Assembly: GCA_903873475.1 (NCBI GenBank) | Contig: CAIQON010000116.1 | Span: 1-54,005 of the forward strand | Source: an uncultured bacterium | GTDB taxonomy: Bacteria > Pseudomonadota > Gammaproteobacteria > Burkholderiales > CAIKXV01 | Length of the DNA stretch: 54,005 nucleotides | Reading direction: 5' to 3' | Shown here: in pieces, positions 7,762 through 35,992 of the stretch | How positions within the stretch are numbered: position 1 is the first letter of the stretch | How the letters are laid out: every line of letters begins with the position of its first letter | Position numbers and translations under genes: made by a program | The notes under the pieces: generated by a model | Seen by the model: the letters and a program-made list of their open reading frames with translations, nothing else | Database searches by the model: none | What the model was told of the DNA's origin: nothing

Positions 7762-7810
7762 GGGTGGCGCGCGGTGTCGTCCAGAGCACCGCCGCTCGGG
7801 GAGTAGAAAC

Positions 7811-8812: not shown

Positions 8813-8976
8813 CCCCTGCCACGGTGTCTGCGGACAGCCCCTGTCGCCGTCTTGCAAGCGGCCGGTGCTCGACGCACACCAGCTGCCACAGGTTGCCACC
8901 GCGGCGCTCGTGCAGCCCGCCTGCATGCGGCTGTCCTTCCACCGCGCGTCGCGGCACGCAATAGTGATGAGATGCG

Positions 8977-8997
8977 CCGGGTGATCAGATCACCCGG
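8977..8997. terminator. Perfect hairpin at the convergent gene ends
   Basis: CCGGGTGAT-CAG-ATCACCCGG is a 9-bp perfect stem with a 3-base loop. It overlaps the stop codon of the minus-strand CoA-transferase and lies between the convergent transcription units. No T-run follows on either strand, so it may act as a weak bidirectional terminator or an mRNA 3' end stabiliser. Confidence 0.4.
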
Positions 8998-12710: not shown

Positions 12711-12735
12711 CGAGTTGATCTCCGGTTAGGTTGGA

Positions 12736-13716: not shown

Positions 13717-13771
13717 CGATTCCTCCTCTGATCCAGGCCCTGTAGACCAGGCCCGTGATCCGTTCAGCGAA

Positions 13772-15774: not shown

Positions 15775-15787
15775 GTTTCCAGGTCTT

Positions 15788-17848: not shown

Positions 17849-17856
17849 CGCGGCCT

Positions 17857-19449: not shown

Positions 19450-19484
19450 CCCATCCTCCCGCGCGGCGCCCGTGCCCTTATCGT

Positions 19485-19522
19485 GGACACTGTGTGTCGC
19501 CGTGTCCTTCATGAAAACACGG
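19485..19522. promoter_or_regulatory. Two overlapping dyads, candidate enhancer sites for the activator
   Basis: GGACAC-N11-GTGTCC at 19485-19507 and CCGTGT-N11-ACACGG at 19500-19522 are perfect 6-bp dyads with the same arm spacing. They lie about 50-90 bases upstream of the -24 element of the divergent operon, where activator-binding sites usually sit, and inside the untranslated region of the activator gene, so autoregulation is possible. Confidence 0.5.
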
Positions 19523-19573
19523 ACGCACCTCGTTTCGCAAGCCGTATCTGGGGAAGGCGCGTCGTGACAGCGA

Positions 19574-19589
19574 TGGCATGGACCTTGCA
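19574..19589 (+). promoter_or_regulatory. Sigma54 (-24/-12) promoter of the plus-strand catabolic operon
   Basis: TGGCATGGACCTTGCA matches TGGCACG-N4-TTGCA almost fully. GG (19575-19576) and GC (19587-19588) are ten bases apart, as required. It points at the CoA-transferase and lies next to a divergent sigma54 activator gene. The transcript would begin near 19600, almost at the ATG at 19602, and an ATG at 19578 would lie inside the promoter. Confidence 0.7.
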
Positions 19590-19601
19590 TTAACGAAAGC
19601 C

Positions 19602-20852: not shown

Positions 20853-21628
20853 GCTACGAAACCATCCTTTATGAAGAGCAGGGCCCCGTGGGCTGGCTCA
20901 CCCTGAACCGCCCGGACGACGGCAACATGTTCACCGCGCAGATGTGCCACGAGATCCGTGACTGCATCGACGACATCCGCCGCGAGACGCGAACCCGCGT
21001 ACTGGTCATCACCGGCGCTGGCGATCGGTTCTTCTGCATCGGTGGCCGCAAGGAAGGAATGGAAGACACGACGCTCTACGCCGGGATGCTGCCGACGCTG
21101 GAGATCTACGAAAGCATCGAGCGCCTGCAGAAGCCTGTCATTGCCTCGGTCAACGGCTTCGCGGTCGGTGGAGGCCAGGTGCTGCAGGTGATGTGCGACA
21201 TGACCATCGCCAAGGAAAGCGCCGTCTTCAGGCAGGTCGGGCCGATGATGGGCAGCTTCGACGCAGGTTACGGGACGTGGTATCTCGAAGACCTCGTCGG
21301 CAAGAAGAAGGCCAAGGAGATGTGGTTCACCAACCCCAGGCTGTCGGCACAGGAGGCGCTCGCGCTGGGCCTGATCAACAAGGTCGTCCCTGACGATCAG
21401 CTGCGCGAAGAAACCACGCGCATGGCCATGCAGATGTGCGAACGCGGCGCGTTCGCGCTGGCTGCGGTCAAGGCCGCCTTCACCGCGAGGCACGGCGGGG
21501 TTGGCGGGCTTGCGCGGGTGAGCCACGACCTGCTGCTCAGGCTCTACCTCGAGACGGACGAATCGAAGGAGCTGGGCGAAGCGTTCCGCGGCAAGCGCAA
21601 GCCCGATCCGGACAAGATGGGTCACTGA
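20849..21628 (+). CDS. BadI-like 2-ketocyclohexanecarboxyl-CoA hydrolase (ring-opening)
   Basis: A 259-residue crotonase-fold protein of the MenB/BadI branch rather than a hydratase. The first catalytic Glu of hydratases is replaced (GFAVGGGQVLQV, Q110), and residues 128-142 read FRQVGPMMGSFDAGY, the MenB/BadI signature with the Asp and Tyr used in Claisen chemistry. GKKKAKEMWF and the ending ETDESKELGEAFRGKRKP also match BadI of Rhodopseudomonas in order and length (about 260). BadI adds water to a 2-keto cyclohexane ring and opens it to pimelyl-CoA. The neighbours supply the preceding steps, which strengthens the assignment. Naphthoate synthase is excluded by the lack of other menaquinone genes here. 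Confidence 0.75.
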   Translation: MSYETILYEEQGPVGWLTLNRPDDGNMFTAQMCHEIRDCIDDIRRETRTRVLVITGAGDRFFCIGGRKEGMEDTTLYAGMLPTLEIYESIERLQKPVIASVNGFAVGGGQVLQVMCDMTIAKESAVFRQVGPMMGSFDAGYGTWYLEDLVGKKKAKEMWFTNPRLSAQEALALGLINKVVPDDQLREETTRMAMQMCERGAFALAAVKAAFTARHGGVGGLARVSHDLLLRLYLETDESKELGEAFRGKRKPDPDKMGH

Positions 21629-21639
21629 AGAAACGCCTC

Positions 21640-23310
21640 ATGACCACGCTGCTGACCCTGCACGATCCAGCCGCTGCGCGCGCGTATTACGCAGCAGGCC
21701 ACTGGTGCGACGACACGCTCTATTCGTTGCTGGCGAAGCACGCGCTGGAGCGGCCTGACGGCTTTGCGCTGCGCGACAGCCGGGCCCGCCTCACGTGGCG
21801 CACGCTGCTGGCCCAGGTCGACCTGCTGGCGGCCGATCTGCACGGCGCGGGCGTGCGCCGCGGCGACCGGGTGGCCATCTGGTTGCCCAACCGGGTCGAA
21901 TGCGCAGTCATCATGCTTGCCTGCTCGCGCAACGGCTATGTGTGCAACCCGTCGCTGCACCAGAACTACACCGGCGCCGACGTGATGTCGCTGCTCGAAC
22001 GCACGGGCTGTGCGGCCCTGTTCGCGCAGGCCGGCTACGGCGCCGATGGCGAGCGCTTCGACATCTTTGCCGCCGTCGAGGGCCTGCCGAAGATGAAGCG
22101 GTTCTACCGCTTCTCGAAAGACCGGGACGACGAGACGCCACTGCCATCGGCTGGCGGCGAGCCCGCCGTCGATGCGCCGCCCGTGGACACCAACCCGGAC
22201 AAGGTCTGCTACCTCGCGTTCACCTCGGGCACCACGGGTGCGCCGAAGGGCGTGATGCATTCCGACAACACGTTGCTGGCCAATGCCCGCGCCATGGTCC
22301 GCGACTGGGGCCATGACCCGTCCACGATCCTGTGCTCGCTGAGTCCGCTGTCGCACCATATCGCCACGGTCGCGGTGCTGCAGTCACTGGTGGCCGGTTT
22401 CGAGCTGGTGATCAACGATCCGCCGCCGGGCGTCAAGCCACTCGACTGGATCCTGCAAACCGGCTCGACCTACGTGATGGGCGTGCCGACGCACGGCATC
22501 GACATCCTGGCCGAAGCACGCCGCCGGGGCCTGCAAGACCTGGGTGCGGTACGCATCTTCTACATGGCAGGTGCACCGATTGCACCGGAGCTCTGCCATG
22601 GCTTCCTCGACATGGGCATTGCCACCCTCAACGTGTACGGCATGACCGAGAACGGCTCGCACCAGTACACGCTGCCCGACGACACGGTCGAAGTCGTGAC
22701 CGGTACCTGCGGACGGGCCTGTGCGGGGTATGAGACACGGCTGTGGAATGCCGAGAACCCCGACATCGAAGCCGCCCCGGGCGAGATCGGGGAGATCGGC
22801 ACGCGCGGCGCACTGCTCACGCTCGGCTATTTCGACAACCAGTTCGCCACCGAGTCGTCGTTCAACGCCGGCGGCTGGTTCATGAGTGGCGATCTCGGCC
22901 GGCTCGACGCGCATGGCAACCTGCAGATCGTCGGCCGCAAGAAAGACCTGATCATTCGGGGTGGCCACAACATCCACCCCGCGCACATCGAGAACCTCGC
23001 CATGAAGCACCCCGGCGTGCTGAAGGCGGCGGCGTTTCCGATCGCCGATGTCCGGCTGGGCGAGCGCGTCTGCCTGGCGGTGATTCCGCGCCAGGGCGCG
23101 CAGGTCGATGCCCAGGCGATGCTCGAACACCTCGATGCTGCCGGCCTGTCGCGCTACGACATGCCGGAGTACTGGGTTACTCTGGAAGCCTTTCCGCTGA
23201 CCGCCAGCGGCAAGGTGCTCAAGCGCGAACTCATCGAGATGACCCGGACAGGTGCCATCGTCGCGCAGGCGATCCGGCGTGCCGCTGTCCGTGCTGCTAC
23301 CGAGGCCTGA
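21640..23310 (+). CDS. Acyl-CoA ligase (AliA-like, cyclohexanecarboxylate-type)
   Basis: A 556-residue ANL-family ligase that adenylates a carboxylic acid and forms its CoA ester. Motifs in order: AFTSGTTGAPKGVMHS (P-loop), NVYGMTENGSHQYT, GWFMSGDLGRLDAHG with its conserved Asp, GRKKDLIIRGGHNIHP (hinge) and the C-terminal catalytic Lys in TASGKVLKRELIE. I chose the ATG at 21640; the upstream frame is a shadow of the hydrolase. Placement beside the BadI-like hydrolase suggests that it activates an alicyclic or aromatic acid, but ANL specificity cannot be read reliably from motifs. Confidence 0.85.
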   Translation: MTTLLTLHDPAAARAYYAAGHWCDDTLYSLLAKHALERPDGFALRDSRARLTWRTLLAQVDLLAADLHGAGVRRGDRVAIWLPNRVECAVIMLACSRNGYVCNPSLHQNYTGADVMSLLERTGCAALFAQAGYGADGERFDIFAAVEGLPKMKRFYRFSKDRDDETPLPSAGGEPAVDAPPVDTNPDKVCYLAFTSGTTGAPKGVMHSDNTLLANARAMVRDWGHDPSTILCSLSPLSHHIATVAVLQSLVAGFELVINDPPPGVKPLDWILQTGSTYVMGVPTHGIDILAEARRRGLQDLGAVRIFYMAGAPIAPELCHGFLDMGIATLNVYGMTENGSHQYTLPDDTVEVVTGTCGRACAGYETRLWNAENPDIEAAPGEIGEIGTRGALLTLGYFDNQFATESSFNAGGWFMSGDLGRLDAHGNLQIVGRKKDLIIRGGHNIHPAHIENLAMKHPGVLKAAAFPIADVRLGERVCLAVIPRQGAQVDAQAMLEHLDAAGLSRYDMPEYWVTLEAFPLTASGKVLKRELIEMTRTGAIVAQAIRRAAVRAATEA

Positions 23311-23314: not shown

Positions 23315-24082
23315 ATGTCGATCCAACTGACGCGCGTTGAAGAATTCGCCCTGATCACGATCGATCGTCCGCAGGCGCTCAACGCGCTGTCGTTCGCGCT
23401 GATCGCCGACCTTGGCGCTGCGATCGACGAGGTCGCGGGCACCGATGCCCGCGCGCTGCTCATCACCGGCAGCGGCCCGAAGGCGTTCTGCGCGGGTGCC
23501 GACATCAAGGAACTCACCGGGCGGTCGATGCAGGCCCAGCATGACGGTGCAGTGTTCGGCCAGACGACGTTCGCCAGGCTCGACCGCCTGCCGATGCCGT
23601 CGATCGCGGTCATCAACGGGTTCGCCTTCGGTGGCGGCCTCGAACTGGCGATGGCGTGCACGTTCCGGCTGGCCACCGCCAACGCGAAGATGGGGCTGCC
23701 CGAAGTGAGGCTCGGTCTCATACCCGGCTATGGCGGCACGCAGCGACTGTCGCGCCTGATCGGCGAGTCGCGCGCGATGGAGATGATCCTCACCGCGCGC
23801 ACGCTCACCGCGAACGACGCGCTGCAGGTCGGCCTGGTGAACCGCCTCATCGGCGCCGATCCGCTCGCCGAGGGCATTGCCTTCGCGCGCGAGTTTTCCG
23901 GGTTCAGCCTGCCCGTACTCGCGCTCGCCCGGTCGGCGATCTCCCGAGGCATGGACATGCCGCTCCAGGACGGCCTGCGGCTGGAGGCCGATCTGTCGAC
24001 GCTGGCCTTCCAGACAGAGGACGCAGCCGAGGGCATGGATGCGTTCAGCGCCAAGCGCAAGCCTGCGTTCAAGGACCGATAG
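23315..24082 (+). CDS. Enoyl-CoA hydratase (BadK-like, cyclohexene-carboxyl-CoA type)
   Basis: A 255-residue crotonase with both catalytic glutamates, E110 in FGGGLELAMACTF and E130 in KMGLPEVRLGLIPGYGG, and the oxyanion strand FCAGADIKEL. It should add water to a 2-enoyl-CoA. In the ring pathway BadK hydrates cyclohex-1-enecarboxyl-CoA. The ATG at 23315 lies five bases after the ligase stop; the longer upstream frame has no ribosome site. The C-terminus AFSAKRKPAFKDR is the common ending. Ordinary fatty-acid hydratases look similar, so the ring role rests on the neighbours. Confidence 0.85.
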   Translation: MSIQLTRVEEFALITIDRPQALNALSFALIADLGAAIDEVAGTDARALLITGSGPKAFCAGADIKELTGRSMQAQHDGAVFGQTTFARLDRLPMPSIAVINGFAFGGGLELAMACTFRLATANAKMGLPEVRLGLIPGYGGTQRLSRLIGESRAMEMILTARTLTANDALQVGLVNRLIGADPLAEGIAFAREFSGFSLPVLALARSAISRGMDMPLQDGLRLEADLSTLAFQTEDAAEGMDAFSAKRKPAFKDR

Positions 24083-24084: not shown

Positions 24085-24837
24085 GTGCATATGCCGACGC
24101 ATGAACGAGTGGTTGCCGTGACTGGCGCGAGCCGCGGCATCGGCGCGGCGATTGCCGTCGAACTGGCACGCCGCGGTTTCACGGTCGCCTGCCTCACGCG
24201 CAAGGGGCTGGGCGTGGAGACGCCAGTGCCGGCGGGGTTGGCCGGACGCCTGCTCAGCGTGCAATGCGACGTGACCGACGAGCAAAGCCTTGCGCAAGCG
24301 TTCGATCGCGTCGCCCGCGAGGCCGGGGGGCTGCATGCGCTGGTCAACAACGCGGGCATCCATGTCGAATCGCCCAGCAACCAGATGAGTGCGGCAACCT
24401 TCGAGCAGGTGATGGCTACCAACACCATCGCGGTGTTCTCCGCCTGCCGGCTGGCCTATCCGCACCTGCTGAAGGCGGGCGCAGGCATGATCGTCAACAT
24501 CGGGTCGTTCTTCGACCGGATGGGTGTCAAGCGCAACCTCGCCTACTGCGCGTCGAAGGCGGCAGTCGGTGCCATCACGCGCTGCCTCGCTGTCGAGTGG
24601 GCGAGCAAGGGCATTCGCGTGATCGACATCGCGCCCGGCTACATCCAGACCGACCTCAACCGGGCGGTGCTCGAGAGCGGCCCGCTCCACGACTACCTGA
24701 AGCGGCGCATCCCCGGTGGCGCGCCCGGCGCCGCGGAGGACGTGGCCCGGCTGATCGGTGCACTCCTGGCCGAAGACATTCCCTTCCTCACGGGCGAGAC
24801 GATCTATCTCGACGGCGCACAAGGCATCGCGCACTGA
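24085..24837 (+). CDS. Short-chain dehydrogenase (BadH-like 2-hydroxycyclohexanecarboxyl-CoA dehydrogenase)
   Basis: A 250-residue classical SDR. The nucleotide motif is TGASRGIG (residues 13-20), the structural NNAG is at 88-91, and the catalytic residues are Ser141, Tyr154 and Lys158 in YCASK. The ending FLTGETIYLDGAQGIAH is typical. BadH oxidises the 2-hydroxy ring CoA ester to the 2-keto ester that BadI opens, and this gene lies directly between hydratase and acyl-CoA dehydrogenase. I favour the GTG at 24085 because AAGGA lies nine bases before it; the ATG at 24091 is the alternative. Other hydroxyacyl-CoA or fatty-acid reductases have the same motifs. Confidence 0.82.
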   Translation: MHMPTHERVVAVTGASRGIGAAIAVELARRGFTVACLTRKGLGVETPVPAGLAGRLLSVQCDVTDEQSLAQAFDRVAREAGGLHALVNNAGIHVESPSNQMSAATFEQVMATNTIAVFSACRLAYPHLLKAGAGMIVNIGSFFDRMGVKRNLAYCASKAAVGAITRCLAVEWASKGIRVIDIAPGYIQTDLNRAVLESGPLHDYLKRRIPGGAPGAAEDVARLIGALLAEDIPFLTGETIYLDGAQGIAH

Positions 24838-24838: not shown

Positions 24839-26005
24839 ATGAACGCGCTTACCCGGCTCGACCGCACGATCAACCTCTCCGACGACGAGCAGATGCTGCT
24901 CGAAAGCGTACGTGCACTCTCACGCGACCTGATCGCACCGAACGCGCAGCAGATCGACCGTTCGGGCGTCTTTCCCCAGGACAACGTCGACGCGATCAAC
25001 GCGCTGGGCCTCAACGCCATGTTCATCCCCGAGGCCTACGGGGGTGCGCCGATGTCGTACACCGCCTATCTCGAGTGCGTGCGTGAACTGTCCAGGGCGT
25101 GTGCGTCCACGGGTGTGATCTGGGCAACGAACTTCCACGCGATCAAGCCATTGATCGACTTCGGAACCGAAGCGCAGAAGCAGCGACTGCTGCCGGTGAT
25201 GGTCGACGGCGGCCTTGCCTCGCTGACGATCACCGAGCCATCGGCAGGCTCCGACGCCACCGGCATGCGAACGTCGTTCACGCCGGACGGCGACGATATC
25301 GTCGTCGACGGCTCCAAGATCTTCATCACCAATGGCGCGCATGCCGACCTCTATCTGGTCTTCGGCAAGTGGAGCACGATCGAAGACAGCAAGGCATCCA
25401 TCTCCGCGCTGATCGTCGAAAAAGGAACGCCAGGGCTGTCGGTGGTGCGCGAGGAAGACAAGATGGGCCTGCGCGCGTCGAGCACCGCCGCCCTCAGCTT
25501 CGAGTCGTGCCGCGTGCCGAGGGCGAACCTGCTCGGCGCGCCCGGCGACGGCCTGCGCATCCTGCTGGCCTCGCTCAACAAGTCGCGCCCGAGCGTGGCG
25601 GCCCATGCCCTCGGCATCGCGCGCGCCGCTTTCGAGGACGCAGTCGCCTACATCAACGAGCGGCGGCAGTCCGGCCGCCGTATCGTCGAGTTCCAGGGCA
25701 TCCAGTTCATGCTGGCCGACATGGCCACCGACCTTGCCATGTGCGAGCGCTGGCTGTGGCATGTCGCCGCGCTGGTCGACGCCGACGCGGCCGACTTCGG
25801 CATCGAAGCGTCGATGCTGAAGTTGCGTGCGTCCGACCTCGCCATGCGCATCACCACCGACGCAGTACAGCTGTTCGGCGGCTACGGATACATCCGCGAC
25901 TATCGCGTCGAGCGCCTGATGCGCGATGCCAAGATCACCCAGATCTGGGAAGGAACCAATCAGGTGCACCGCCAGCTGATCGGGCGGAGTTTCATGCGGA
26001 AGTAG
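24839..26005 (+). CDS. Acyl-CoA dehydrogenase (AliB-like)
   Basis: A 388-residue flavin acyl-CoA dehydrogenase. The FAD/substrate motif ITEPSAGSDATG, the middle strand GSKIFITNGAHADLY, GLRASSTAALSFESC and the C-terminal QLFGGYGYIRDYRVERLMRDAK are all present. The catalytic base is Glu in IWEGTNQVHR. In the ring route it would introduce the first double bond into cyclohexanecarboxyl-CoA, as AliB/BadJ do. It starts one base after the SDR stop. Electron transfer would go through ETF proteins encoded elsewhere. Short-chain acyl-CoA dehydrogenases are the main alternative. Confidence 0.88.
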   Translation: MNALTRLDRTINLSDDEQMLLESVRALSRDLIAPNAQQIDRSGVFPQDNVDAINALGLNAMFIPEAYGGAPMSYTAYLECVRELSRACASTGVIWATNFHAIKPLIDFGTEAQKQRLLPVMVDGGLASLTITEPSAGSDATGMRTSFTPDGDDIVVDGSKIFITNGAHADLYLVFGKWSTIEDSKASISALIVEKGTPGLSVVREEDKMGLRASSTAALSFESCRVPRANLLGAPGDGLRILLASLNKSRPSVAAHALGIARAAFEDAVAYINERRQSGRRIVEFQGIQFMLADMATDLAMCERWLWHVAALVDADAADFGIEASMLKLRASDLAMRITTDAVQLFGGYGYIRDYRVERLMRDAKITQIWEGTNQVHRQLIGRSFMRK

Positions 26006-26083
26006 ATCGACACCGGCCCAGACAACATCCACGGGAGCAACAGACTCCTGGCCGGTCCACTCAAGCGCTGGAGGAGATTGCAG

Positions 26084-27052
26084 ATGAATCATCTGAAGAC
26101 ATCATTGCTGGTTGCAGGGTTGGTCGCTTCGACCGGGTGCCTGGCCCAGGCGCCCGCGTTCCCGTCCAAACCGGTCCGGATCATCGTTCCGTATGCACCC
26201 GGCGGTTCGACCGACGTGGTCATGCGAACCATCGCACCGCGGCTGACCGAAGACTTCGGACAGCAGGTGGTGGTCGACAACCGTCCGGGCGCATCCTCGA
26301 CCATCGGCCTCGACCTCGCGGCAAAGTCCGCTCCGGACGGGCTGACCTGGGGCGTGCCGAACATCGCGTTCGGTGCCAACCCGAGCATGATCAAGAAGAT
26401 GCCGTTCGATTCCGAGAAAGACCTGATCCCGGTGACGCAGGTGTCCGTGGTGAGCATGGTCCTGGTGGTCAATCCGTCGTTGCCGGCGCGCTCGGTGAAG
26501 GAACTGCTGGCCCTGGCCAAGGCGCGCCCTGCGCAACTGACGTTCGGCTCCGCGGGCAACGCCACCGCAAACCATCTTGCGGCCGGACTGTTCATGCAGC
26601 GCACCGGCGCAGACATGGTTCACGTGCCCTACAAGGGCGGCGGACCAGCCGTGGTGTCGCTGCTCGCGGGTGAGACGTCGCTGCTGTTTGCCACGATTCC
26701 TGCAGCCCTCCAGCACATCCAGAGTGGCCGGTTGCGCGCGCTCGGCGTGACCCGTGCACGCCGCGCGGCCATGCTGCCGGATGTCGCGACCGTCGCCGAG
26801 TCGGGCGTGCCCGGTTACGAGGCCATCGAGTGGAACGGCGTGATGGTGCCGGCCGGCACGCCGATGCCAGTCGTGCGGCGCATTCGTGACGCCGTCGCGA
26901 AGGTACTGGCGCCCACTGAAATGAAAGAGCGCCTGCTGGCCGTCGGTGCCGAGGGCGTTGGCAGCACGCCAGAAGAGTTTTCCGCCTTCATCCGCACTGA
27001 ACTTGCAACGTGGTCGAAAGTCGTCCGTGAGCTTCAACTGAGCGTGGACTGA
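26084..27052 (+). CDS. Bug/TctC-family periplasmic substrate-binding protein
   Basis: A 322-residue binding protein with a lipoprotein-like or plain signal (LVAGLVASTGCLAQAPAF; a Cys lies in ASTGC). The binding loops are VRIIVPYAPGGSTDVVMR, NRPGASSTIG and HVPYKGGGPAVV. The ATG at 26084 has GGAGGAG upstream; a TTG at 26078 is less likely. It sits inside the ring-degradation operon between the acyl-CoA dehydrogenase and the hydroxyacyl-CoA dehydrogenase, so uptake or sensing of the operon's substrate is its likely role. The pattern of a Bug gene inside each catabolic unit repeats through the window. Confidence 0.9.
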   Translation: MNHLKTSLLVAGLVASTGCLAQAPAFPSKPVRIIVPYAPGGSTDVVMRTIAPRLTEDFGQQVVVDNRPGASSTIGLDLAAKSAPDGLTWGVPNIAFGANPSMIKKMPFDSEKDLIPVTQVSVVSMVLVVNPSLPARSVKELLALAKARPAQLTFGSAGNATANHLAAGLFMQRTGADMVHVPYKGGGPAVVSLLAGETSLLFATIPAALQHIQSGRLRALGVTRARRAAMLPDVATVAESGVPGYEAIEWNGVMVPAGTPMPVVRRIRDAVAKVLAPTEMKERLLAVGAEGVGSTPEEFSAFIRTELATWSKVVRELQLSVD

Positions 27053-27083: not shown

Positions 27084-27959
27084 ATGAGCGACATCCGGAC
27101 AGTCGGCATCGCCGGCAGCGGAACGATGGGTGCCGGCATCGCCATCGTCGCCGCCCGTGCAGGCTTTCGCACGATCGTCTACGACACCCGCCAGGCAGCG
27201 CTGGACCGCGCTCGCAAGCAGACCGAGGGTTTCTTCGCGAAATCGGTCCAGCGAGGCAAGCTGACCCAGGCAGAGGTCGATGCCATCCTTGCCCGCCTGC
27301 AAGGCACTACCGAGATCGGTGCCATGGCCGAATGCGACATCGTCATCGAGGCCGTGTTCGAAGACCTGCAGACCAAGCACGCGGTGCTGCAACAGCTCGA
27401 TTCGGTATGCCCGGCCAGCACGCTGTTCGCGTCGAACACGTCGACCCTCGCGATCACCGAGATCGCGGCAGGTTCAGGCCGCGCCGATCGCGTCGTCGGC
27501 ATGCACTTCTGCCTGCCAGCGCAGCTGATGAAGCTGGTCGAGATGTCGCCTGGCATCCGCACCAGCAGCGACACGTTCGACGCTGCCTGGGCGTTCTGCA
27601 AGGCGATGGGACAGACCCCGGTGAAGACACGAGACAACCCGGGGTTCATCCTCAACTACTTCCTGGTGCCGTTCAACAACGATGCGATACGCCTGGTCGA
27701 AGCGGGGGTAGCCCAACCGCGCGACATCGACCTGGCCATCAAGCGCGCACTGGGCTATCCGATGGGCCCCCTGGAGCTGCTCGACCTGGTCGGGCTCGAT
27801 ACGCACCTGCTGGTCGCCGAAGCGCTGTTCGCGTCGACCCATGAACCGCGCGCGGCCGTACCCGCGCTGGTGCGCAGGATGATCGCGGCCGGCCACCTCG
27901 GGCGCAAGACCGGCCAGGGGTTCTACACGTACGAGACCAACGCGATGTTCGGAGGCTGA
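27084..27959 (+). CDS. 3-hydroxyacyl-CoA dehydrogenase, NAD and catalytic domains
   Basis: A 291-residue L-3-hydroxyacyl-CoA dehydrogenase. The Rossmann start GIAGSGTMGAGIAIVAARAGF binds NAD. The catalytic His lies in VGMHFCLPAQLMKLVEM, followed by the usual region TPVKTRDNPGFILNYFLVP, and a helical C-terminal domain with GYPMGPLELLDLVGLDT. It acts in beta-oxidation on 3-hydroxyacyl-CoA esters. Together with the following gene (6 bases away) it equals the roughly 500-residue PaaH-type enzyme cut in two. A 3-hydroxypimelyl-CoA substrate would fit ring opening upstream. Confidence 0.88.
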   Translation: MSDIRTVGIAGSGTMGAGIAIVAARAGFRTIVYDTRQAALDRARKQTEGFFAKSVQRGKLTQAEVDAILARLQGTTEIGAMAECDIVIEAVFEDLQTKHAVLQQLDSVCPASTLFASNTSTLAITEIAAGSGRADRVVGMHFCLPAQLMKLVEMSPGIRTSSDTFDAAWAFCKAMGQTPVKTRDNPGFILNYFLVPFNNDAIRLVEAGVAQPRDIDLAIKRALGYPMGPLELLDLVGLDTHLLVAEALFASTHEPRAAVPALVRRMIAAGHLGRKTGQGFYTYETNAMFGG

Positions 27960-27965: not shown

Positions 27966-28634
27966 ATGTCCTACACGATCCTGTCCACCGGACCCAGCGC
28001 CGCGTTCGCGGCCGATCACCCGCTGCTGACTGGCGGCGTTGCGCAAGGCGAGGTCGTCGTCGTGCTCGGGCCTGGCGCCGGCGCGGCGGCCATGGCCCTT
28101 GCCCCGGCCAGCGACCGGGTCGCGGTGCTGGTCGAGCTCGGTACCGAGTGCCTGGGCGAGTACACCGGCGAGTCGCGCGGGCAGGAGGGATCCTGCGTCG
28201 TGGGCTTCTCCCGCTTCCGGCTGGGCGACCTGCCACCGAGCAACCTGGTCGAGCTGGTGCGCCAGCCGGCCACGCCCGATGCAGCCATCGAGGCTGCACG
28301 CAGCGTGCTCGAATCGGCCGGGCTCGAAGTGGCCGTGTGTGGCGACTTCGTCGGTCGTATCGTCGATCGCCTCGTGCGTCCGTATTACAACGCTGCGCTG
28401 CGCCGGCTCGATGAAGGCCTGGCCACGGCCGACGACCTCGACACCACGCTGCGGCTCGGGCTGGGCTATCCGCAGGGTCCGATCAAGCTGCTGGAAGACA
28501 GCGGGCTGGCTGCGCACTGGCAGGTCTCGCAGGCCCTTTTCGAGCAGACGGGCGACACCGGCTACGCGCCGGCGCGCCGCGCGACCGTAGCCCACCGCCG
28601 CCAGGCTGGCACGACAAAGGACGGGCGCGCATGA
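27966..28634 (+). CDS. Separate C-terminal module of a PaaH-type 3-hydroxyacyl-CoA dehydrogenase
   Basis: A 222-residue protein. Its second half (CGDFVGRIVDRLVRPYYNAALRRLDEG, then TTLRLGLGYPQGPIKLLEDSGL) is the helical 3HCDH C-terminal domain. The first half has no complete nucleotide-binding motif (VVVLGPGAGAAAMALA is only loosely Gly-rich) and corresponds to the RFF-like spacer of long PaaH proteins. It cannot work alone as a dehydrogenase. It probably forms a complex with the enzyme encoded 6 bases upstream, which has the NAD domain. A decaying duplicate is the alternative. Confidence 0.7.
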   Translation: MSYTILSTGPSAAFAADHPLLTGGVAQGEVVVVLGPGAGAAAMALAPASDRVAVLVELGTECLGEYTGESRGQEGSCVVGFSRFRLGDLPPSNLVELVRQPATPDAAIEAARSVLESAGLEVAVCGDFVGRIVDRLVRPYYNAALRRLDEGLATADDLDTTLRLGLGYPQGPIKLLEDSGLAAHWQVSQALFEQTGDTGYAPARRATVAHRRQAGTTKDGRA

Positions 28635-28653: not shown

Positions 28654-29784
28654 ATGAGCCAGCCACTGAAAGGCCTGCGCGTGCTCGACTTCAGCACGCT
28701 GCTTCCGGGACCGCTGGCCAGCCTCATCCTGGCCGAGGCTGGCGCCGAGGTGATCAAGATCGAGCGTCCCGGCCGCGGCGACGAAATGCGTTCGTACGTG
28801 CCGCGTTTCGGCGAGGACAGCGTCAACTTCGCGCTGCTCAACCGCGGCAAGCGCAGCGTCGCCATCGACCTCAAGGCCGCCGGTGCCGTCGATCGGCTGG
28901 CACCGCTGATCGCCTCGGCCGATGTCGTGCTCGAACAGTTCCGTCCCGGCGTGATGGATCGCCTGGGGCTGGGCTATGGCGCCCTGAGTGCCGTCAACCC
29001 GCGCCTGATCTACTGCGCGATCACCGGCTATGGACAACACGGCCCGCGGGTGGACGTGGCTGCACACGACCTCAACTTCATCGCCGAGGCAGGCATGCTC
29101 GGCCTGTCGGCCGGCGCCGACGGTGCGCCGATCCTCCCGCCGGCGCTGATCGCCGACATCGCGGGCGGCACGTATCCCGCCGTGCTCAACATCCTCCTTG
29201 CGCTGCGGGAACGTGACCGCACCGGCAAGGGAAGCAGGCTCGATATCGCGATGGCCGACAACGTCTTCACGTTCATGTACTGGGCGCTGGGCAATGCGCA
29301 TGCCGCCGGGCAGTGGCCGCAGCCGGGTGGCGAACTCGTGACTGGCGGCAGCCCCCGCTACAACATCTACCGCACGCGCGACGATCGATTCATCGGGGCC
29401 GCGCCCCTGGAAGACAAGTTCTGGGCGACGTTCTGCGAAGTCGTCGGCGTTCCGACCGAGGCCCGCGATGACGCGCGTGATCCGGCTGCAACGCGCGCCT
29501 GCGTAGCCGCGCTGATCGCGCTCGACACCGCCGACGGCTGGCGTGCGCGCTTCGAGGGGCGCGAAGTGTGCTGCTCGGTGGTGGCGACGCTGGCCGAAGC
29601 CCTCGCGTCTTCCCACTTCGCCGCGCGCGGCATCTTCTCGCGCTCACTGCAAGGCGATGGGCGCGCCATTGCAGCCCTGCCGGTACCCGTCGACGAGGCG
29701 TTCCGGGCGCCGGTGCTCGACGCCGGCTACCCGGCCCTGGGTGAAGGCAATGACCTGCTTGCCCCCGGGCAGGGTCCGTCATGA
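28654..29784 (+). CDS. Family III CoA-transferase
   Basis: A 376-residue enzyme that is slightly shorter than its relatives here. It opens GLRVLDFSTLLPGPLASLIL with EVIKIERPGRGDEMRSYVPRFG. The contact strand is NRGKRSVAIDLK and the catalytic Asp is D168 in PALIADIAGGTYP. The C-terminal part after RTRDDRFIGAAPLEDKFW is complete. It lies 19 bases after the 3HCDH module and 10 bases before the oxidoreductase. It may act on a ring-opened dicarboxylate such as a pimelate homologue or exchange CoA with succinate, but the acid is not determinable. Confidence 0.88.
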   Translation: MSQPLKGLRVLDFSTLLPGPLASLILAEAGAEVIKIERPGRGDEMRSYVPRFGEDSVNFALLNRGKRSVAIDLKAAGAVDRLAPLIASADVVLEQFRPGVMDRLGLGYGALSAVNPRLIYCAITGYGQHGPRVDVAAHDLNFIAEAGMLGLSAGADGAPILPPALIADIAGGTYPAVLNILLALRERDRTGKGSRLDIAMADNVFTFMYWALGNAHAAGQWPQPGGELVTGGSPRYNIYRTRDDRFIGAAPLEDKFWATFCEVVGVPTEARDDARDPAATRACVAALIALDTADGWRARFEGREVCCSVVATLAEALASSHFAARGIFSRSLQGDGRAIAALPVPVDEAFRAPVLDAGYPALGEGNDLLAPGQGPS

Positions 29785-29794: not shown

Positions 29795-30802
29795 ATGCTA
29801 GCCCTGGTCGTCGAGAGCCACGGGCCCGTCGACAGCCTGCAGTTGCGCGACCATGCGCAGCCACCTGCGCCGGGTGCGGGCGAAGTGCTCGTAGAGGTGC
29901 ACGCCGCAAGCATCAACTTCCCCGACCTGATGGTGGTCGCGGGAACCTATCAGAACCTGCCGCAGTGCCCGTTCGTGCCGGGCAAGGACCTCGCGGGGCG
30001 GGTGTTGGCCACCGGGCCCGGCGTACGTCGACTGCAATCCGGTGACCGCATCATGGCGCATGTGGAACATGGCGCGTTCGCCCAGCGCGTGCTGGTGCCC
30101 GAGCAGCAGTGCCATGTGATGCCTTCCAGCATGAGCTATCGGCAAGGCGCCGCGATGGGACTGGCCTACCTGACTGCCCACTTCGCGCTGGTCGAGCGCG
30201 CGCGGATGCAGCCGGGCGAGATCGTCATGGTGACCGGTGCAGCCGGTGGCGTGGGGCTCGCGGCAGTGCAGGTGGCCCGGGCACTCGGTGCGACCGTGGT
30301 TGCCGCAGTCGGATCCGAGGCCAAGGCCAGGTTCGTCGCCGCACAGGGCGCGCACCACGTCGTGCGTACCGACCGGCCCTCGCTGAGGGACGCGCTGCGC
30401 GAGCAGGTGTACGCCGCCGTGGGAAAGCGCGGCGTGGACGTGGTCATTGACCCGGTCGGCGGCGACGTGTTCGACGCGAGCCTGCGCACGCTGGCCTGGT
30501 GCGGCAGGCTGGTGATCGTCGGATTCGCGGAGGGCCGGATCCCCGAGGTGAAGGCGGGGCTGTTGCTGGTCAAGAACATCTCGCTCATCGGGCTGCAGGT
30601 CAGCGACTACCGCGACCGGGCGCCGCACAAGGTGGATCAGGTGCAGGACGAACTGCATCGACTGTTCGAGCGTGGCAGCCTGAGCCCCTCGATCATGGCC
30701 ACCTTCCCGCTGCAGGATTACCGCGCCGCCCTGCGCACGGTGCAGGACCGCGCCGTCCTCGGAAAGGTCGTGCTCGACCTGTGCGGTCAGTCGTCAGATT
30801 GA
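29795..30802 (+). CDS. Zinc-free medium-chain dehydrogenase, NADPH:quinone-oxidoreductase-like
   Basis: A 335-residue MDR-superfamily reductase. The GroES-like part has SINFPDLMVVAGTYQ and FVPGKDLAGRVLATGPGV. The nucleotide part begins at VMVTGAAGGVGLAAVQVARALGATVVA, the AxGGVG motif of NADPH-binding quinone oxidoreductases. VDVVIDPVGGDVFDASLRTLAWCGRLVIVGFA is the typical second half. No zinc ligands are seen. Members reduce enones, quinones or enoyl-CoAs. In this operon it could reduce an unsaturated CoA intermediate. The ATG at 29795 follows the upstream stop by ten bases. Confidence 0.85.
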   Translation: MLALVVESHGPVDSLQLRDHAQPPAPGAGEVLVEVHAASINFPDLMVVAGTYQNLPQCPFVPGKDLAGRVLATGPGVRRLQSGDRIMAHVEHGAFAQRVLVPEQQCHVMPSSMSYRQGAAMGLAYLTAHFALVERARMQPGEIVMVTGAAGGVGLAAVQVARALGATVVAAVGSEAKARFVAAQGAHHVVRTDRPSLRDALREQVYAAVGKRGVDVVIDPVGGDVFDASLRTLAWCGRLVIVGFAEGRIPEVKAGLLLVKNISLIGLQVSDYRDRAPHKVDQVQDELHRLFERGSLSPSIMATFPLQDYRAALRTVQDRAVLGKVVLDLCGQSSD

Positions 30803-30873: not shown

Positions 30874-31602
30874 ATGGCACGACTCGGGCTTCTTGTTCCT
30901 TCATCGAACACCTCGGTAGAGACCGAGTTCCATCGCACGCTTCCCGACGCGGTGACGCTGCACGTGGGACGCCTGTTCCTCACCCAGGTCACGCCGGAAT
31001 CGGTGCGCCGGATCGTCGCCGACATGGAGGGGCAGGCGAAGCTGCTGGCCTCGGCCGATGTCGACCTGATCGTGCTCGGCGCAACGCTGCCCAGCCTGCT
31101 CAATGGCCTGGGCTACGACCAGCAGTTGATCGGCACGATCGAGGCGGCCACCGGCAAGCCTGCGACCACGACCACCACGGCGCTGGTCAAGGCCTTGCGC
31201 CGCATGGACATCCGGCGCGTGGTGATGGGTGCAGCCTATGACGACACGATGAACGGCGTGGCCTGCAACTTCCTCCAGGCAAGCGGTTTCGAGGTCCTGG
31301 AAGCCGCGTCGCTCGGCTACGTGGACAACCTGCAGATCGGCCGGCTCCCGTCGGAGACAGCCTACGAACTGGGCTGCAGGATCGCCCGGCCCGACGCGGA
31401 TGCGATCGTGCTCGCATGCACCAACTGGATGACGCTCGATGTGATCGAGCGTATCGAGGCCACCACGGGCAAGCCGGTGATCACGACGACGCAGGCCACG
31501 CTGTGGGCGGCACTCGGCCTGCTGGGCGTGGAGCCACGGGCCGGCTTCGGCCGCCTGATGCACATGAGTGCCGAACGCGCCACCTCGACGCCGGCTGCGT
31601 GA
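30874..31602 (+). CDS. Asp/Glu racemase superfamily protein, maleate-isomerase/arylmalonate-decarboxylase type
   Basis: A 242-residue protein of the group that contains maleate cis-trans isomerase, hydantoin racemase and arylmalonate decarboxylase. Two cysteines catalyse isomerisation or racemisation in the family. Here the first site reads VLGATLPS with Ala70 where Cys is normal, and the second reads VLACTNWM with Cys182. One remaining cysteine is the pattern of arylmalonate decarboxylase, so a decarboxylase role is favoured over isomerase. Other landmarks are LVPSSNTSVETEF and the repeated TGKP-T-TTT strands. The TGA overlaps the next ATG by one base. Substrate unknown. Confidence 0.82.
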   Translation: MARLGLLVPSSNTSVETEFHRTLPDAVTLHVGRLFLTQVTPESVRRIVADMEGQAKLLASADVDLIVLGATLPSLLNGLGYDQQLIGTIEAATGKPATTTTTALVKALRRMDIRRVVMGAAYDDTMNGVACNFLQASGFEVLEAASLGYVDNLQIGRLPSETAYELGCRIARPDADAIVLACTNWMTLDVIERIEATTGKPVITTTQATLWAALGLLGVEPRAGFGRLMHMSAERATSTPAA

Positions 31603-31775
31603 TGGAAACGCACGCCGATGTCCTGGTGATCGGCGGTGGCGGCGCCGGCCTTGCGGCAGCGGCCGAGGCGGCGGCTGGCGGCCGCAGCGTAATCCTGCAC
31701 CACCTGGGCTGGGCCTTCATTTCCGGACGCATTGCAGTACACCATGCAGGCCAGAGAGCGGAGCAGGCACGATGA
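31602..31775 (+). pseudogene. Truncated flavoprotein, FAD-binding start only
   Basis: The first 32 residues are a regular flavoprotein N-terminus: ADVLVIGGGGAGLAAAAEAA is the GxGxxG dinucleotide fold, and GGRSVIL its second strand. After that the frame changes character (HHLGWAFISGRIA) and stops at 58 codons, with no flavoprotein body downstream. It looks like an in-place deletion of a 400-500-residue FAD-dependent reductase. A full-length flavoprotein at 34580 belongs to the same broad group and may have replaced it. The ATG is directly coupled to the decarboxylase-like gene, so it was once part of the operon. Confidence 0.6.
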
Positions 31776-32296
31776 TCTTCATGAGTCAGAGCGGGCTGGT
31801 CGACCCCAGCCGCCAGGCCGAGTGGGATGCGTGGTATCTCGAGCACCTCGCGATCATGGCCACGGTACCCGGCGTGCTTTCCGCCCAGCGGTTCGCCACC
31901 ACCAGCGCGGGCCATCCGCCATCGCTCGGGCTCTACACGGTCACGTCGCCAGACGTGTTCAACGGTGCCTACTACCAGAGCGTGCGCGGCATGGGGTCGT
32001 GGCTGCCGCTGATCGCCCGCGAACACTACCGTCGCAATCTGTTCGAAGGGCTAGCCTGCGCGCCTGAAGTCGAAGCCGGGCAGGTGCTGCTGCTCGAAGA
32101 CCTGAAGGCGGTGCCCGCCGGCGACGCCAGCGCGTCCTCGCCCGGCGTTCACTGCCTGCGATCGGTGGGGCTCGATCGATCGACGCCCTGCCGCCTCGTC
32201 CAGGTGGTGCCCGACGCGCCTGCGTCCCTGCCGCACCGTCCCGAAGTTGCAGTCTACCGTCCGGTCAGTGCACGCCTTGCGGGGAAGCCGGCATGA
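31772..32296 (+). CDS. Small cytoplasmic protein, dimeric alpha-beta barrel (EthD/DUF-like)
   Basis: A 174-residue protein that I place only loosely. SQSGLVDPSRQAEWDAWYLEHLAIMATVPGVLSAQRF is typical of EthD/monooxygenase-like dimeric barrels, in which His/Trp residues lie after WYxEHL. The second half may be a second strand set or a linker to VAVYRPVSARLAGKPA. No signal peptide is seen. The ATG at 31772 has GGAG about ten bases upstream. The next gene starts within its last codon (ATGA), so it is coupled to the PRISE reductase. A role as an accessory or decarboxylase-like domain for the neighbouring reactions is possible. Confidence 0.55.
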   Translation: MIFMSQSGLVDPSRQAEWDAWYLEHLAIMATVPGVLSAQRFATTSAGHPPSLGLYTVTSPDVFNGAYYQSVRGMGSWLPLIAREHYRRNLFEGLACAPEVEAGQVLLLEDLKAVPAGDASASSPGVHCLRSVGLDRSTPCRLVQVVPDAPASLPHRPEVAVYRPVSARLAGKPA

Positions 32297-33345
32297 AGCA
32301 CGGTGTGGCAGTGATCGTCGGCGCGACCGGCCTGATCGGGCAACGGCTGGCGAACCACCTGCAGGGCACGGGCGCGTGGGACCTCATCGGACTTTGCCGC
32401 AACGCGACCCGGCCGAGCCCGATACCCCTGCTGTCGGTCGACCTGGTCGATGCCACAAGCTGCCGGCAGGCCTTGGCGGGCCTCGACGCGGTCACGCATG
32501 TGTTCTATACGGCACGCTTCGACCATCCAGAAGGCGTCCATGAGTCGGTCGAAACCAACGCGACCATGTTGCGCAACGTGGTCGACGCAATCGATGCCGC
32601 CTCGCCCCGACTGGCCCACGTGCACGCCGTGCACGGAACCAAGTATTACGGCCACAACCTCGGGCCGATCCCGGTGCCGGCCAGCGAAGACAGCCCCCGG
32701 GCCTCGCGGGTCAACTTCTACTTCCCGCAGGAGGACTACCTGCGCGAGCGCAGCAAGGTGCGACCGTGGACATGGAGCACCTCGCGCCCCCACATCTTCT
32801 GCGACGACTCGCCCGGCACGCCCCGAAACCTTCCGCTGCTGATCGCGGTCTATGCATCCGTCCTGCGCGAGGCCGGGGAGCCCCTGTACTTTCCCGGCAC
32901 CGAGGCCAGCTTCCGTGCGCGTACGCAGTTCACCGATCTTTCGATGCTGTCCCGGATGATCGAATGGATGGCGATCACGCCAGCCTGCGCGAACCAGGCG
33001 TTCAATGTCGTCAATGGCGACTGCCCGCGCTGGTGCGACCTGTGGCCGGTGTTCGCCGCCTGCTTCGACATGCAGCCCGGGCCGGTCCGTCCCGCCCGGC
33101 TGCGCGAGATGATGGCGCCGCGAGCCGCGCAATGGGATGCCATCGTCACGCGCCATGCGCTCAAGCCCTCGAGCCTTGGCGACGCGGTATTGTGGGAGTA
33201 CGGCGACTATGTGTTCTGGCCGGAGTGGGACATCGTTTCAGACATGAAAAAAGCCCGCCAGCACGGCTTCACGGAGCAACTCGACAGTGCCCGGCAGCTC
33301 GTCGCACTGTTCGACCGGATGCGTGCCCAGCGGATCATTCCGTAG
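32293..33345 (+). CDS. PRISE-like NAD(P)-dependent enone reductase
   Basis: A 350-residue extended short-chain reductase related to progesterone 5-beta-reductase/iridoid synthase (PRISE). The nucleotide motif is VIVGATGLIGQRLA. The family motif HVHAVHGTKYYGHNLGP carries the conserved Lys117, and NFYFPQEDYLRE carries Tyr143, the Lys/Tyr pair used by these enzymes. WTWSTSRPHIFC and the motif FPGTEASF further match. PRISE enzymes reduce the C=C of an enone. A cyclic enone in an alicyclic or terpenoid route is possible. The gene overlaps the previous stop by ATGA and is followed 14 bases later by a Bug gene, a pair repeated at 36494-38527. Confidence 0.8.
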   Translation: MKHGVAVIVGATGLIGQRLANHLQGTGAWDLIGLCRNATRPSPIPLLSVDLVDATSCRQALAGLDAVTHVFYTARFDHPEGVHESVETNATMLRNVVDAIDAASPRLAHVHAVHGTKYYGHNLGPIPVPASEDSPRASRVNFYFPQEDYLRERSKVRPWTWSTSRPHIFCDDSPGTPRNLPLLIAVYASVLREAGEPLYFPGTEASFRARTQFTDLSMLSRMIEWMAITPACANQAFNVVNGDCPRWCDLWPVFAACFDMQPGPVRPARLREMMAPRAAQWDAIVTRHALKPSSLGDAVLWEYGDYVFWPEWDIVSDMKKARQHGFTEQLDSARQLVALFDRMRAQRIIP

Positions 33346-33358: not shown

Positions 33359-34321
33359 ATGAAGAGCATCTGCCGCGCATTGATCATGGCATCGCTGTCG
33401 TTTGCCGCAACCGCCCATGCACAGACCTATCCAGACAAGCCCATTCGCTGGATCGTGCCGTGGCCGCCAGGCGGCGGTGCCGATGTGCTGTCGCGCATGC
33501 TGAGCGGGCGGCTCGCCGAGTTGATGGGACAGCCGGTGATCATCGACAACCGCGGCGGCGCGGCGGGCAACATCGGTGCGGAGGTGGCCGCACGCGCGAT
33601 CCCGGACGGCTACACCATCGCCTTCGCCTACTCCGGCACGCACTCGATCAATCCGCACATCTATTCGAAGATGCCGTTCCGCGACAGCGACTTCGCGCCG
33701 GTGATCTGGTTGTCCATGGTGCCCCAGGTGCTGGTGGTCAATCCGGCCGTCCCGGCCAAGACGGTGAAGGAACTGATCACGCTTGCCCGGACACGCCCCG
33801 GTGAACTCACCTTCGGTTCCAGCGGCAATGGCGCGATCAACCACCTGACCGGCGAACTGTTCAACATTCGCGCGGGCACGAAGATCCTGCACGTTCCCTA
33901 CAAGGGGGGTGGCCCGGCCTCGATAGCGCTGATATCGGGCGAGATCAGCATGATCTTCGGTGAGCCGGCTACCATCGTGCAACAGGTCAGGTCGGGCAAG
34001 CTGCGCGCGATCGCCGTGACCAGCGCGGCGCGCGCCAAGGCCATGCCGGAATTGCCGACGCTGGCCGAGTCCGGCATCGCCGATTACGAGGTCACTTCAT
34101 GGAACGGCGTGCTGGCTCCGGCGGCGACCCCGCGCGAAATCGTCAACCGGCTGAATGCTGAATTCAACCGGATGATCGCGGCACCGAGCATGCAGGCAAG
34201 GATGCTCGAGTTCGGGTTCGAGCCCACTGGCGGAACGCCCGAGCGGTTCGGGAGCCTGATTCGCGATGAGCTCGCCAAATGGGCGCCTGTGGTCAAGGCG
34301 GCTGGCATCAAGATCGATTGA
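33359..34321 (+). CDS. Bug/TctC-family periplasmic substrate-binding protein
   Basis: A 320-residue protein with a clear signal peptide (MKSICRALIMASLSFAATAHAQ). Loops: IRWIVPWPPGGGADVLSR, NRGGAAGNIG, HVPYKGGGPASI. The start at 33359 has GGAGGAG upstream. It follows a PRISE-like reductase and precedes the small membrane protein and flavoprotein. Compared with the protein at 37559 it occupies the same place behind a PRISE gene, so the pair probably handles related compounds. No transporter membrane subunits are adjacent. Confidence 0.9.
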   Translation: MKSICRALIMASLSFAATAHAQTYPDKPIRWIVPWPPGGGADVLSRMLSGRLAELMGQPVIIDNRGGAAGNIGAEVAARAIPDGYTIAFAYSGTHSINPHIYSKMPFRDSDFAPVIWLSMVPQVLVVNPAVPAKTVKELITLARTRPGELTFGSSGNGAINHLTGELFNIRAGTKILHVPYKGGGPASIALISGEISMIFGEPATIVQQVRSGKLRAIAVTSAARAKAMPELPTLAESGIADYEVTSWNGVLAPAATPREIVNRLNAEFNRMIAAPSMQARMLEFGFEPTGGTPERFGSLIRDELAKWAPVVKAAGIKID

Positions 34322-34579: not shown

Positions 34580-35992
34580 ATGAGCAACGAAGATATCCGT
34601 GATGTAGTCGTCGTCGGTGGCGGGCTGGGCGGGTTGAGTACGGCCGTGCGCGCGGCCCAGCTCGGCCTGCGCGTGACGGTGCTGGAACGCGGCGAGGAAG
34701 AGCTGTACCTCTGCAACTCGCGCTTTTCGGGGGGCATTCTGCATATCGCCCAGCACAACGTGCTCGAGCCGGCGGAACAGCTCGAACAGGTCATCCTCGA
34801 GGCCACCCTGGGCGAGGCGGATCCGGCCCTCGCGCGCACGCTGGCGCTCGATGCCCGCCGCGCCGTGGGCTGGCTCGCCGAGGCGGGCACGCGGTTCATC
34901 AAGGTGGGACAGATCGTATGGCAGCAGCATGTCCTTGCGCCACCGCGACCGATCACCCCCGGCCTCGATTGGAAGGGGCGCGGACCGGATGTCACGCTCC
35001 GTGTACTCGAAGCGCAGTTGACCAAGGCCGGGGGCTCGATACTGCGCGGCACGGCTGCCTGCAGCCTGATGGAAAGCGGCGGCAGGTGCATCGGGGTCGA
35101 AGCGCAGTCGCGCGACGGCAAGGCCCTGCAGTTTCCCGCGCGCGCGGTCGTGCTCGCCGATGGCGGCTTCCAGGCGAACCTGCAGATGATCGGCGAGCAC
35201 ATCACCCCTGCACCGGCCAGGCTCAAGCAGCGTGGCGCTGCAACCGGTGTCGGCGATGGCATGCGCATGGCCCGGGCGCTCGGCGCCGAAGTCAGTCCGT
35301 TGAACGCCTTCTATGGCCACATGCTGTCGCGCGACTCGTTCACCAACGACAAGGTCTGGCCCTATCCGCAGCTTGACGAACTCGGTACCGCCGGTATCGT
35401 CGTCAACAGTGACGGCGAGCGTTTCGTCGACGAAGGCATGGGTGGCGTCTACGTGGCCAACATGATCGCGCGGCTGGCCGACCCGCTCTCGACCTGGGCC
35501 GTGTTCGACGAGGCGATCTGGAACGGCCCGGGCAAGGACGCCCGGATTCCAGCCAATCCGCACCTGGTCAGGGGCGGTGGTACGGTGCTGCAGGCATCCA
35601 CGCTGACCGATCTGGCCGTCCAGATGCATGTCCCTGCCGAGCGCTTGATGCTGACCGCGGAGCGGTACAACGACGCCGTTGCACAAGGCAGCAGCGAGCA
35701 GTTGAGCCCGCGCAGGACGTCCACCCGAATCGCCGCCCGGCCCCTGCGGGAAGGCCCGTTCTATGCCGTGCCCCTGTGTGCAGGCATCACGTACACGATG
35801 GGCGGCATCTGCATCAGCGCCGATGCCCGTGTCGTTCGTGGCGGGGGCGACTCGATCAGCGGCCTGTACGCCGTCGGCGCCACGACCGGTGGGCTGGAAG
35901 GCGGCAGCGGCGCCGGTTACGTCGGTGGGCTGATCAAGGCGGCGACCTTCGGCATTCGTGCAGCCGAAGACATCGCGCGAACGATCCGATGA
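34580..35992 (+). CDS. FAD-dependent dehydrogenase/reductase, fumarate-reductase/tricarballylate-dehydrogenase-like
   Basis: A 470-residue flavoprotein of the succinate dehydrogenase/fumarate reductase and 3-ketosteroid-1-dehydrogenase group. It opens DVVVVGGGLGGLSTAVRAAQ. The second FAD contact is ARAVVLADGGFQANLQMIGE, and the last part has CAGITYTMGGICISADARV and LYAVGATTGGLEGGSGAGY. It oxidises or reduces a C-C bond next to a carbonyl or carboxylate. Without the His/Arg catalytic set being assigned I cannot name the substrate. The neighbouring two-helix protein may be its anchor. The fragment at 31602 may be the ruin of a related enzyme. Confidence 0.8.
   Translation: MSNEDIRDVVVVGGGLGGLSTAVRAAQLGLRVTVLERGEEELYLCNSRFSGGILHIAQHNVLEPAEQLEQVILEATLGEADPALARTLALDARRAVGWLAEAGTRFIKVGQIVWQQHVLAPPRPITPGLDWKGRGPDVTLRVLEAQLTKAGGSILRGTAACSLMESGGRCIGVEAQSRDGKALQFPARAVVLADGGFQANLQMIGEHITPAPARLKQRGAATGVGDGMRMARALGAEVSPLNAFYGHMLSRDSFTNDKVWPYPQLDELGTAGIVVNSDGERFVDEGMGGVYVANMIARLADPLSTWAVFDEAIWNGPGKDARIPANPHLVRGGGTVLQASTLTDLAVQMHVPAERLMLTAERYNDAVAQGSSEQLSPRRTSTRIAARPLREGPFYAVPLCAGITYTMGGICISADARVVRGGGDSISGLYAVGATTGGLEGGSGAGYVGGLIKAATFGIRAAEDIARTIR

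Follow-up and report, generated by a model that had tools for sequence, protein, structure and literature searches.

The window analysed here, a 54,005-nucleotide stretch of DNA from an uncultured bacterium of the Burkholderiales, encodes a single-cysteine protein of the Amdase family whose sequence places it in a small, well-defined subfamily that appears to be neither a true arylmalonate decarboxylase (AMDase) nor a normal maleate isomerase. We use the working name NW for this subfamily, after its invariant Asn184-Trp185. Our leading reading, to which we give a probability of roughly 35%, is that the NW protein would be a one-base, Cys182-assisted proton-shift isomerase (catalysing a double-bond shift or tautomerisation) beside an operon resembling the bad-ali pathway of cyclohexanecarboxylate degradation. 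Tentatively, this could be an undescribed activity in which a cofactor-free one-Cys enzyme and an FAD dehydrogenase ready an alicyclic di- or oxo-carboxylic acid of the cyclohexane type for CoA-dependent opening of its ring. If true, it would provide a natural substrate class for an AMDase-like protein, a question still open for the AMDases themselves, and would mean that loss of the nucleophilic Cys occurred repeatedly in the superfamily and led to different results. No title or abstract describing the NW subfamily was found in the literature searched.

The NW subfamily and its missing first cysteine

The translation of the NW gene matches the Pfam Amdase family (PF17645) with 130.7 bits against a gathering cut-off of 25.9, so the original prediction, made from the bare sequence, was right to place it in the racemase/decarboxylase superfamily. 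The gene is truly coding and under purifying selection, with dN/dS values of 0.082, 0.049, and 0.129 against three relatives from the genus; the Pfam score and the low dN/dS rule out a chance ORF or a pseudogene. Aligned to solved relatives, Ala70 (VLGA70TLPS) falls on Gly74 of AMDase and on the first Cys of Nocardia farcinica (N. farcinica) maleate isomerase, while Cys182 (VLAC182TNW) falls on AMDase Cys188 and on the second maleate isomerase Cys, confirming the predicted replacement of the first Cys by Ala and retention of the second. For codon 70 the window gene has GCA and the three genus relatives have GCG, GCA, and GCC, all of which specify Ala. The prediction had named another Cys near residue 70 as a feature that would speak against it; none was found, since the remaining cysteines, C131 and C168, are unconserved across the NW clade and lie in helices of the predicted structure.

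Relatives were sought in 11 genomes of the genus and 399 genomes of the order. NW genes occur in 16 of the 399 (18 copies, 42-98% identity), and Ancylobacter polymorphus carries a plasmid-borne copy with 44% identity; the 18 NW rows compared here are the order copies plus this plasmid copy, minus the near copy from genome G006. In 369 genomes of the class, a profile search hit one genome besides the window's own, and the relative there carries Gly70. Position 70 is Ala in 17 of the 18 rows and Ile in one, position 182 is Cys in 16 and Gly in 2, and N12, H30, R33, N152, N184, and W185 are invariant (18/18). Judged from these aligned sequences, Ala70 is a fixed trait of the clade rather than a mutation. 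The two members with Gly182 (L051 and L052, from genomes G138 and G266) lack both catalytic cysteines; in L052, moreover, position 70 is Ile and two Cys lie around positions 207-209. Column counts leave out nine near copies or fragments (L001, L002, L003, L008, L009, L018, L022, L029, and L034), and L076, L081, and L082, which duplicate the window gene, L021, and L038.

In a 48-row tree, which omits 12 of 60 rows for their long or distant branches (4ix1, Sto_2dgd, L006, L007, L025, L026, L027, L028, L032, L036, L037, and L057), the NW rows form one clade with support of 100/100 and the four AMDase rows belong to a different branch. In an earlier tree of all 60 rows the NW rows formed one group against the AMDase rows, with deep forks that were weak or open and with L052, L047, L048, and L083 outside any supported clade with the other 14 NW rows. 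A second loss of the first Cys in the NW lineage, independent of that in AMDase, is likely from these sequence trees, and stays at that strength because a topology joining NW and AMDase in one clade is not rejected on the 48-row tree (p-AU 0.198). The first Cys is also absent in 10 of 38 family rows outside NW and AMDase, and 7 of these 10 lack the second as well. Because first-Cys loss is this common in the family sample, and is found in several of its branches, one Cys by itself does not predict decarboxylase chemistry, a warning against equating “one cysteine” with “AMDase.” One Amdase-family branch without either catalytic cysteine (SGVPVASV / PGGLWF) is conserved in the genus and includes a gene in the window's own genome (L007:1411-2142, contig C45) as well as L025, L027, and L037.

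The active site compared with AMDase and maleate isomerase

The original prediction saw in the single Cys the arrangement of AMDase, and concluded that the enzyme probably decarboxylates a malonate-like acid. What holds of the first statement is that one Cys occupies the AMDase proton-donor position; position 70, however, is Ala rather than Gly, and the active site otherwise does not resemble that of AMDase. A 2016 survey lists 12 AMDase criteria in its Table 4 (PMC4996985). The window protein keeps the equivalents of P14 (P9), T75 and Y126 of the dioxyanion hole (T71 and Y122), L40 and V43 of the hydrophobic pocket (L36 and V39), and C188 (Cys182). It lacks P15 (S10), S76 and G189 of the dioxyanion hole (L72 and T183), Y48, V156, and M159 of the pocket (V44, the polar N152, and I155), the G74 that pairs with C188 (Ala70), and both sequence motifs, having VLGATLPS and IVLACTNW where AMDases have LMGTSLSF and ILLSCGGL. 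Across the clade, hydrophobic residues fill four of the five pocket columns in almost every NW row, and the fifth, Val156 in AMDase, is Asn152 in 18/18.

The NCBIfam equivalog model for AMDase (NF052327) gives the window protein 129 bits against a cut-off of 225, which is passed in only 3 of the 399 genomes of the order, through genes other than NW. This cut-off and the published criteria rule out AMDase membership of the window protein, and together with Asn152 they leave the proposed malonate decarboxylation unsupported: the single-Cys observation is real, but the conclusion that it marks an AMDase is not carried by the other active-site residues as aligned. The likeness to the AMDase of Bordetella bronchiseptica (EC 4.1.1.76, 3dg9/3ixl) comprises the fold, the lone Cys at the second position, the dioxyanion-hole residues Thr71 and Tyr122, and TctC genes nearby, and 3dg9 is the best PDB sequence match of the window protein (E 3e-26), with maleate isomerases next. 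In contrast, the Asn12, His30, and Arg33 of NW are absent from the four AMDase rows. The prediction's further remark that such an activity has few known native contexts is dated, as the 2016 survey classifies 63 AMDases with their transporter contexts. The same survey states that the natural AMDase substrate is still to be identified (PMC4996985).

An AlphaFold model of the window protein (pLDDT 90.6) was compared with solved structures by VIA-align, giving Z 34.9 for the maleate isomerase 2xed (232 aligned) and Z 34.8 for 4fq5 (rmsd 1.4), and Z 33.3 and 33.2 for the AMDase structures 3ixl and 3dg9 (rmsd 1.7-1.8). The predicted fold is thus marginally nearer to maleate isomerase than to AMDase, the Z gap of 1.5 being small and the isomerase fold being common to AMDase as well. 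With the maleate cis-trans isomerases (EC 5.2.1.1; N. farcinica 2xec/2xed, P. putida 4fq5/4fq7) the NW protein shares the PSSN motif, H30, R33, Asp-Asn 151-152, and the second Cys. Both columns of the isomerase Asn pair, which we take to hold the substrate carboxylate in maleate isomerase, are Asn in 2xec and in every NW row (N12 and N152). The nucleophilic first Cys, by contrast, is replaced by Ala in 17 of the 18 NW rows and by Ile in one, so the window protein does not have the two cysteines of maleate isomerase. Its score with the EutA model (TIGR02990) is 109.1 bits against an equivalog cut-off of 318.

The operon and the FAD dehydrogenase

Table 1. Features of the window around the NW gene, and paralogues that occupy its operon slot in other genomes
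Feature	Position	Strand	Basis or remark
Sigma-54-dependent regulator, divergent from operon	17857..19590	-	
Class III CoA-transferase (CaiB1)	19578..20852	+	
Crotonase, MenB/BadI branch, ring hydrolase candidate	20849..21628	+	
Acyl-CoA ligase, AliA-like candidate	21640..23310	+	
Enoyl-CoA hydratase, BadK-like candidate	23315..24082	+	
Short-chain dehydrogenase (SDR), BadH-like candidate	24091..24837	+	
Acyl-CoA dehydrogenase, AliB-like candidate	24842..26005	+	
TctC-type solute receptor	26078..27052	+	
3-Hydroxyacyl-CoA dehydrogenase	27084..27959	+	
3-Hydroxyacyl-CoA dehydrogenase C-terminal-domain protein	27966..28634	+	
Class III CoA-transferase (CaiB2)	28654..29784	+	
Zinc-type/quinone oxidoreductase (MDR)	29810..30802	+	
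Single-Cys Amdase-family protein (NW subfamily), 242 aa; A70, C182, N12, N152, N184-W185	30874..31602	+	ATG start, family match, alignments
Remnant of second FAD protein	31602..31775	+	Both gene ends match genome G003
Small conserved protein, no family match	31775..32296	+	
PRISE-like reductase	32293..33345	+	
TctC-type solute receptor	33359..34321	+	
FAD-dependent dehydrogenase (FAD_binding_2), co-occurring, usually adjacent partner	34580..35992	+	Family match, co-occurrence
Two-Cys Amdase-family paralogues	L097:12224-12886, L098:2043-2708, L102:7557-8219		Same operon slot

The catabolic setting that had been predicted for the single-Cys gene is clear from its neighbours, which include CoA-transferases, a ligase, a hydratase, an SDR, and an acyl-CoA dehydrogenase (Table 1). 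From the first CoA-transferase to the acyl-CoA dehydrogenase the genes are nearly gapless, and they are followed by a TctC receptor, two hydroxyacyl-CoA dehydrogenase pieces, a second CoA-transferase, the MDR, and the NW gene. Candidates for five kinds of bad-ali enzyme (ligase, dehydrogenase, hydratase, SDR, and BadI-type hydrolase) stand in a row. The cyclohexanecarboxylate ligase model is the third match of the ligase, and the cyclohexane-1-carbonyl-CoA dehydrogenase model the second match of the dehydrogenase. Since the operon enzymes score below the cut-offs of the specific models (BadI 227.5 against 467.6 bits, ligase 265.6 against 792.3), the alicyclic reading rests on the set and not on single genes; as a set, the operon resembles the bad-ali pathway, which would suggest an alicyclic acid. 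The bad-ali pathway of Aromatoleum sp. CIB (PMC9795900) likewise has a CoA ligase, an acyl-CoA dehydrogenase, a hydratase, an SDR, and a BadI/MenB-type crotonase, whereas the window operon has extra CoA-transferases, a split hydroxyacyl-CoA dehydrogenase, an MDR, and a sigma-54 instead of a MarR regulator. Upstream of the operon (window 3134-17860) lie further CoA-transferase, TctC receptor, and amidohydrolase-like genes, labelled by eye and partly on the minus strand.

Similar operons with no NW gene in the stretch compared are present on plasmids of Cupriavidus, Burkholderia, Achromobacter, Paraburkholderia, Aminobacter, Salipiger, and Celeribacter; gene labels in these and in the other synteny comparisons are tblastn matches to window genes and not family assignments. 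Transporters near these operons are of the TRAP (L093, L094), ABC (L085, L087, L092, L094), and MFS (L090, L092) types. An association of the NW gene with TTT transporters, and of NW-less operons with ABC transporters, was not upheld, as NW-less plasmid operons have TTT receptors too (L091). Beside the NW-less operon of Cupriavidus sp. P-10 plasmid pMTS2 (L085:1-2560) are genes for a type II 3-dehydroquinate dehydratase, an SDR, and a PRISE-like protein, a possible alternative pathway entry. Ancylobacter polymorphus ZM13 has been mentioned in connection with dioxane, which is of no help in naming an NW substrate.

Two-Cys paralogues of the NW protein (YGCTSGSF / VACTQL) share about 30% identity with it. 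One is encoded in the window's own genome (contig C313), and in three genomes from another bacterial family (L097, L098, and L102) the NW slot between the MDR and the small protein is filled by a two-Cys paralogue with 81-84% identity to copies from the window's genus. A fourth genome (L104), cut off by the end of the compared region, probably has one there as well. These paralogues are like NW in family, second Cys, and operon position, and differ in having both cysteines; the exchange is an apparent gene swap within one superfamily. In a further genus relative (L112), a two-Cys paralogue lies among genes that by eye resemble hydantoinase/oxoprolinase.

The FAD-dependent dehydrogenase gene co-occurs with the NW gene and in most cases lies next to it. 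Matches to it (E up to 1e-90) occur in 14 of the 399 genomes of the order, all 14 of which carry NW, and among the NW genomes G061 and G144 lack it (2/16); a homologue of at least 50% identity lies in the surrounding sequence compared for 13 of the 18 NW copies. The operon acyl-CoA dehydrogenase is found in 20 of the 399 genomes, including the same 14 with the FAD protein and NW, and in 11 of these 14 it and NW are on separate contigs. Within the genus, NW, the FAD protein, and the acyl-CoA dehydrogenase are present together in the same 5 of 11 genomes and are all absent from the other 6. These counts are not independent, because the genomes are related and represent few lineages. The joint presence of NW, the FAD dehydrogenase, and the bad-ali-like operon in 14 of 16 genomes of the sample makes the AMDase-type substrate question testable: one can ask for the ring acid that induces the cluster and for the change that the NW enzyme makes to it.

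The FAD partner lacks the Arg that we take to be the acid of fumarate reductase and, by sequence alignment, the His and Arg that presumably bind carboxylates there. It therefore does not point to a C4-dicarboxylate, and fumarate-type chemistry for this protein is weakened. In G003 a full-length ORF of about 490 codons for a second FAD protein separates the NW gene from the one that follows it; the window and G006 lack about 1.3 kb of this ORF, and at this place in G007 the gene is absent.

Possible reactions of the NW protein

From the conserved residues, the clade, the predicted fold, and the co-occurring genes we infer a substrate class and a reaction. The cofactor-free NW enzyme would take a free carboxylic acid as its substrate, upstream of the CoA-dependent operon or beside it, together with its dedicated FAD dehydrogenase. 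One substrate carboxylate would lie in a dioxyanion hole that the loops near residues 70-72, 122, and 182-184 form, with Asn12 and Asn152 holding a second acidic group. The enediolate (or dienediolate) that would then form would receive its proton back from Cys182. Maleate isomerase works by Michael addition of its nucleophilic Cys (PMC12576825). With no nucleophilic first Cys this chemistry would be unavailable to NW, and we chose a one-base proton shift as slightly likelier than decarboxylation. The retained Asn152 argues against easy loss of the second carboxylate as CO2 and for its being held. Elsewhere a two-Cys paralogue takes the place of NW, and FAD and PRISE-like proteins are encoded nearby, both of which hint at redox and double-bond chemistry. 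For these reasons the isomerase is put first and a decarboxylase close behind. Cys182 is not universal, which counts against the isomerase, although one of the two rows with Gly182 is still found beside an FAD homologue.

An AMDase-like decarboxylation, in which a malonate-like acid taken up through TctC would lose one carboxylate, Cys182 would protonate the enediolate, and the mono-acid would pass to the CoA ligase, is in our view slightly less likely than the proton shift. The position of the single Cys, the closest PDB match, and the largely hydrophobic pocket columns speak for it, as do the adjacent TctC receptors, a feature also reported around beta-proteobacterial AMDases (PMC4996985), and the Ancylobacter relative, which sits with TctA/TctB and a ligase. 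Yet Asn152 takes the place of the Val156 that lines the leaving-group pocket, a pocket described as hydrophobic (PMC12576825) and without which an annotated AMDase was reported inactive in the 2016 study (PMC4996985). The missing S76, G189, and G74 and the low equivalog score also argue against decarboxylation, as does the occurrence of the same bad-ali-like operon near TTT, TRAP, ABC, or MFS genes without an NW gene. Classical two-centre chemistry, a cis-trans isomerisation or racemisation with another residue replacing the first Cys, would fit the predicted fold nearest to maleate isomerase and the two-Cys paralogues in the same slot, but positions 69-71 offer no Cys, Ser, His, or Lys in the clade alignment and the covalent route needs a Cys nucleophile (PMC12576825), so that we consider this improbable.

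Compared with the proton-shift isomerase, it is rather unlikely that the NW protein is a lyase, a hydro-lyase, or another enolate-forming enzyme acting on a ring acid, or that it has lost catalysis. In favour of this group of readings are L051 and L052, which have neither cysteine, and the dehydroquinase and PRISE-like genes by the NW-less operon of Cupriavidus P-10. That the protein is dead is made less likely by strong purifying selection and by the conservation of its partner genes.
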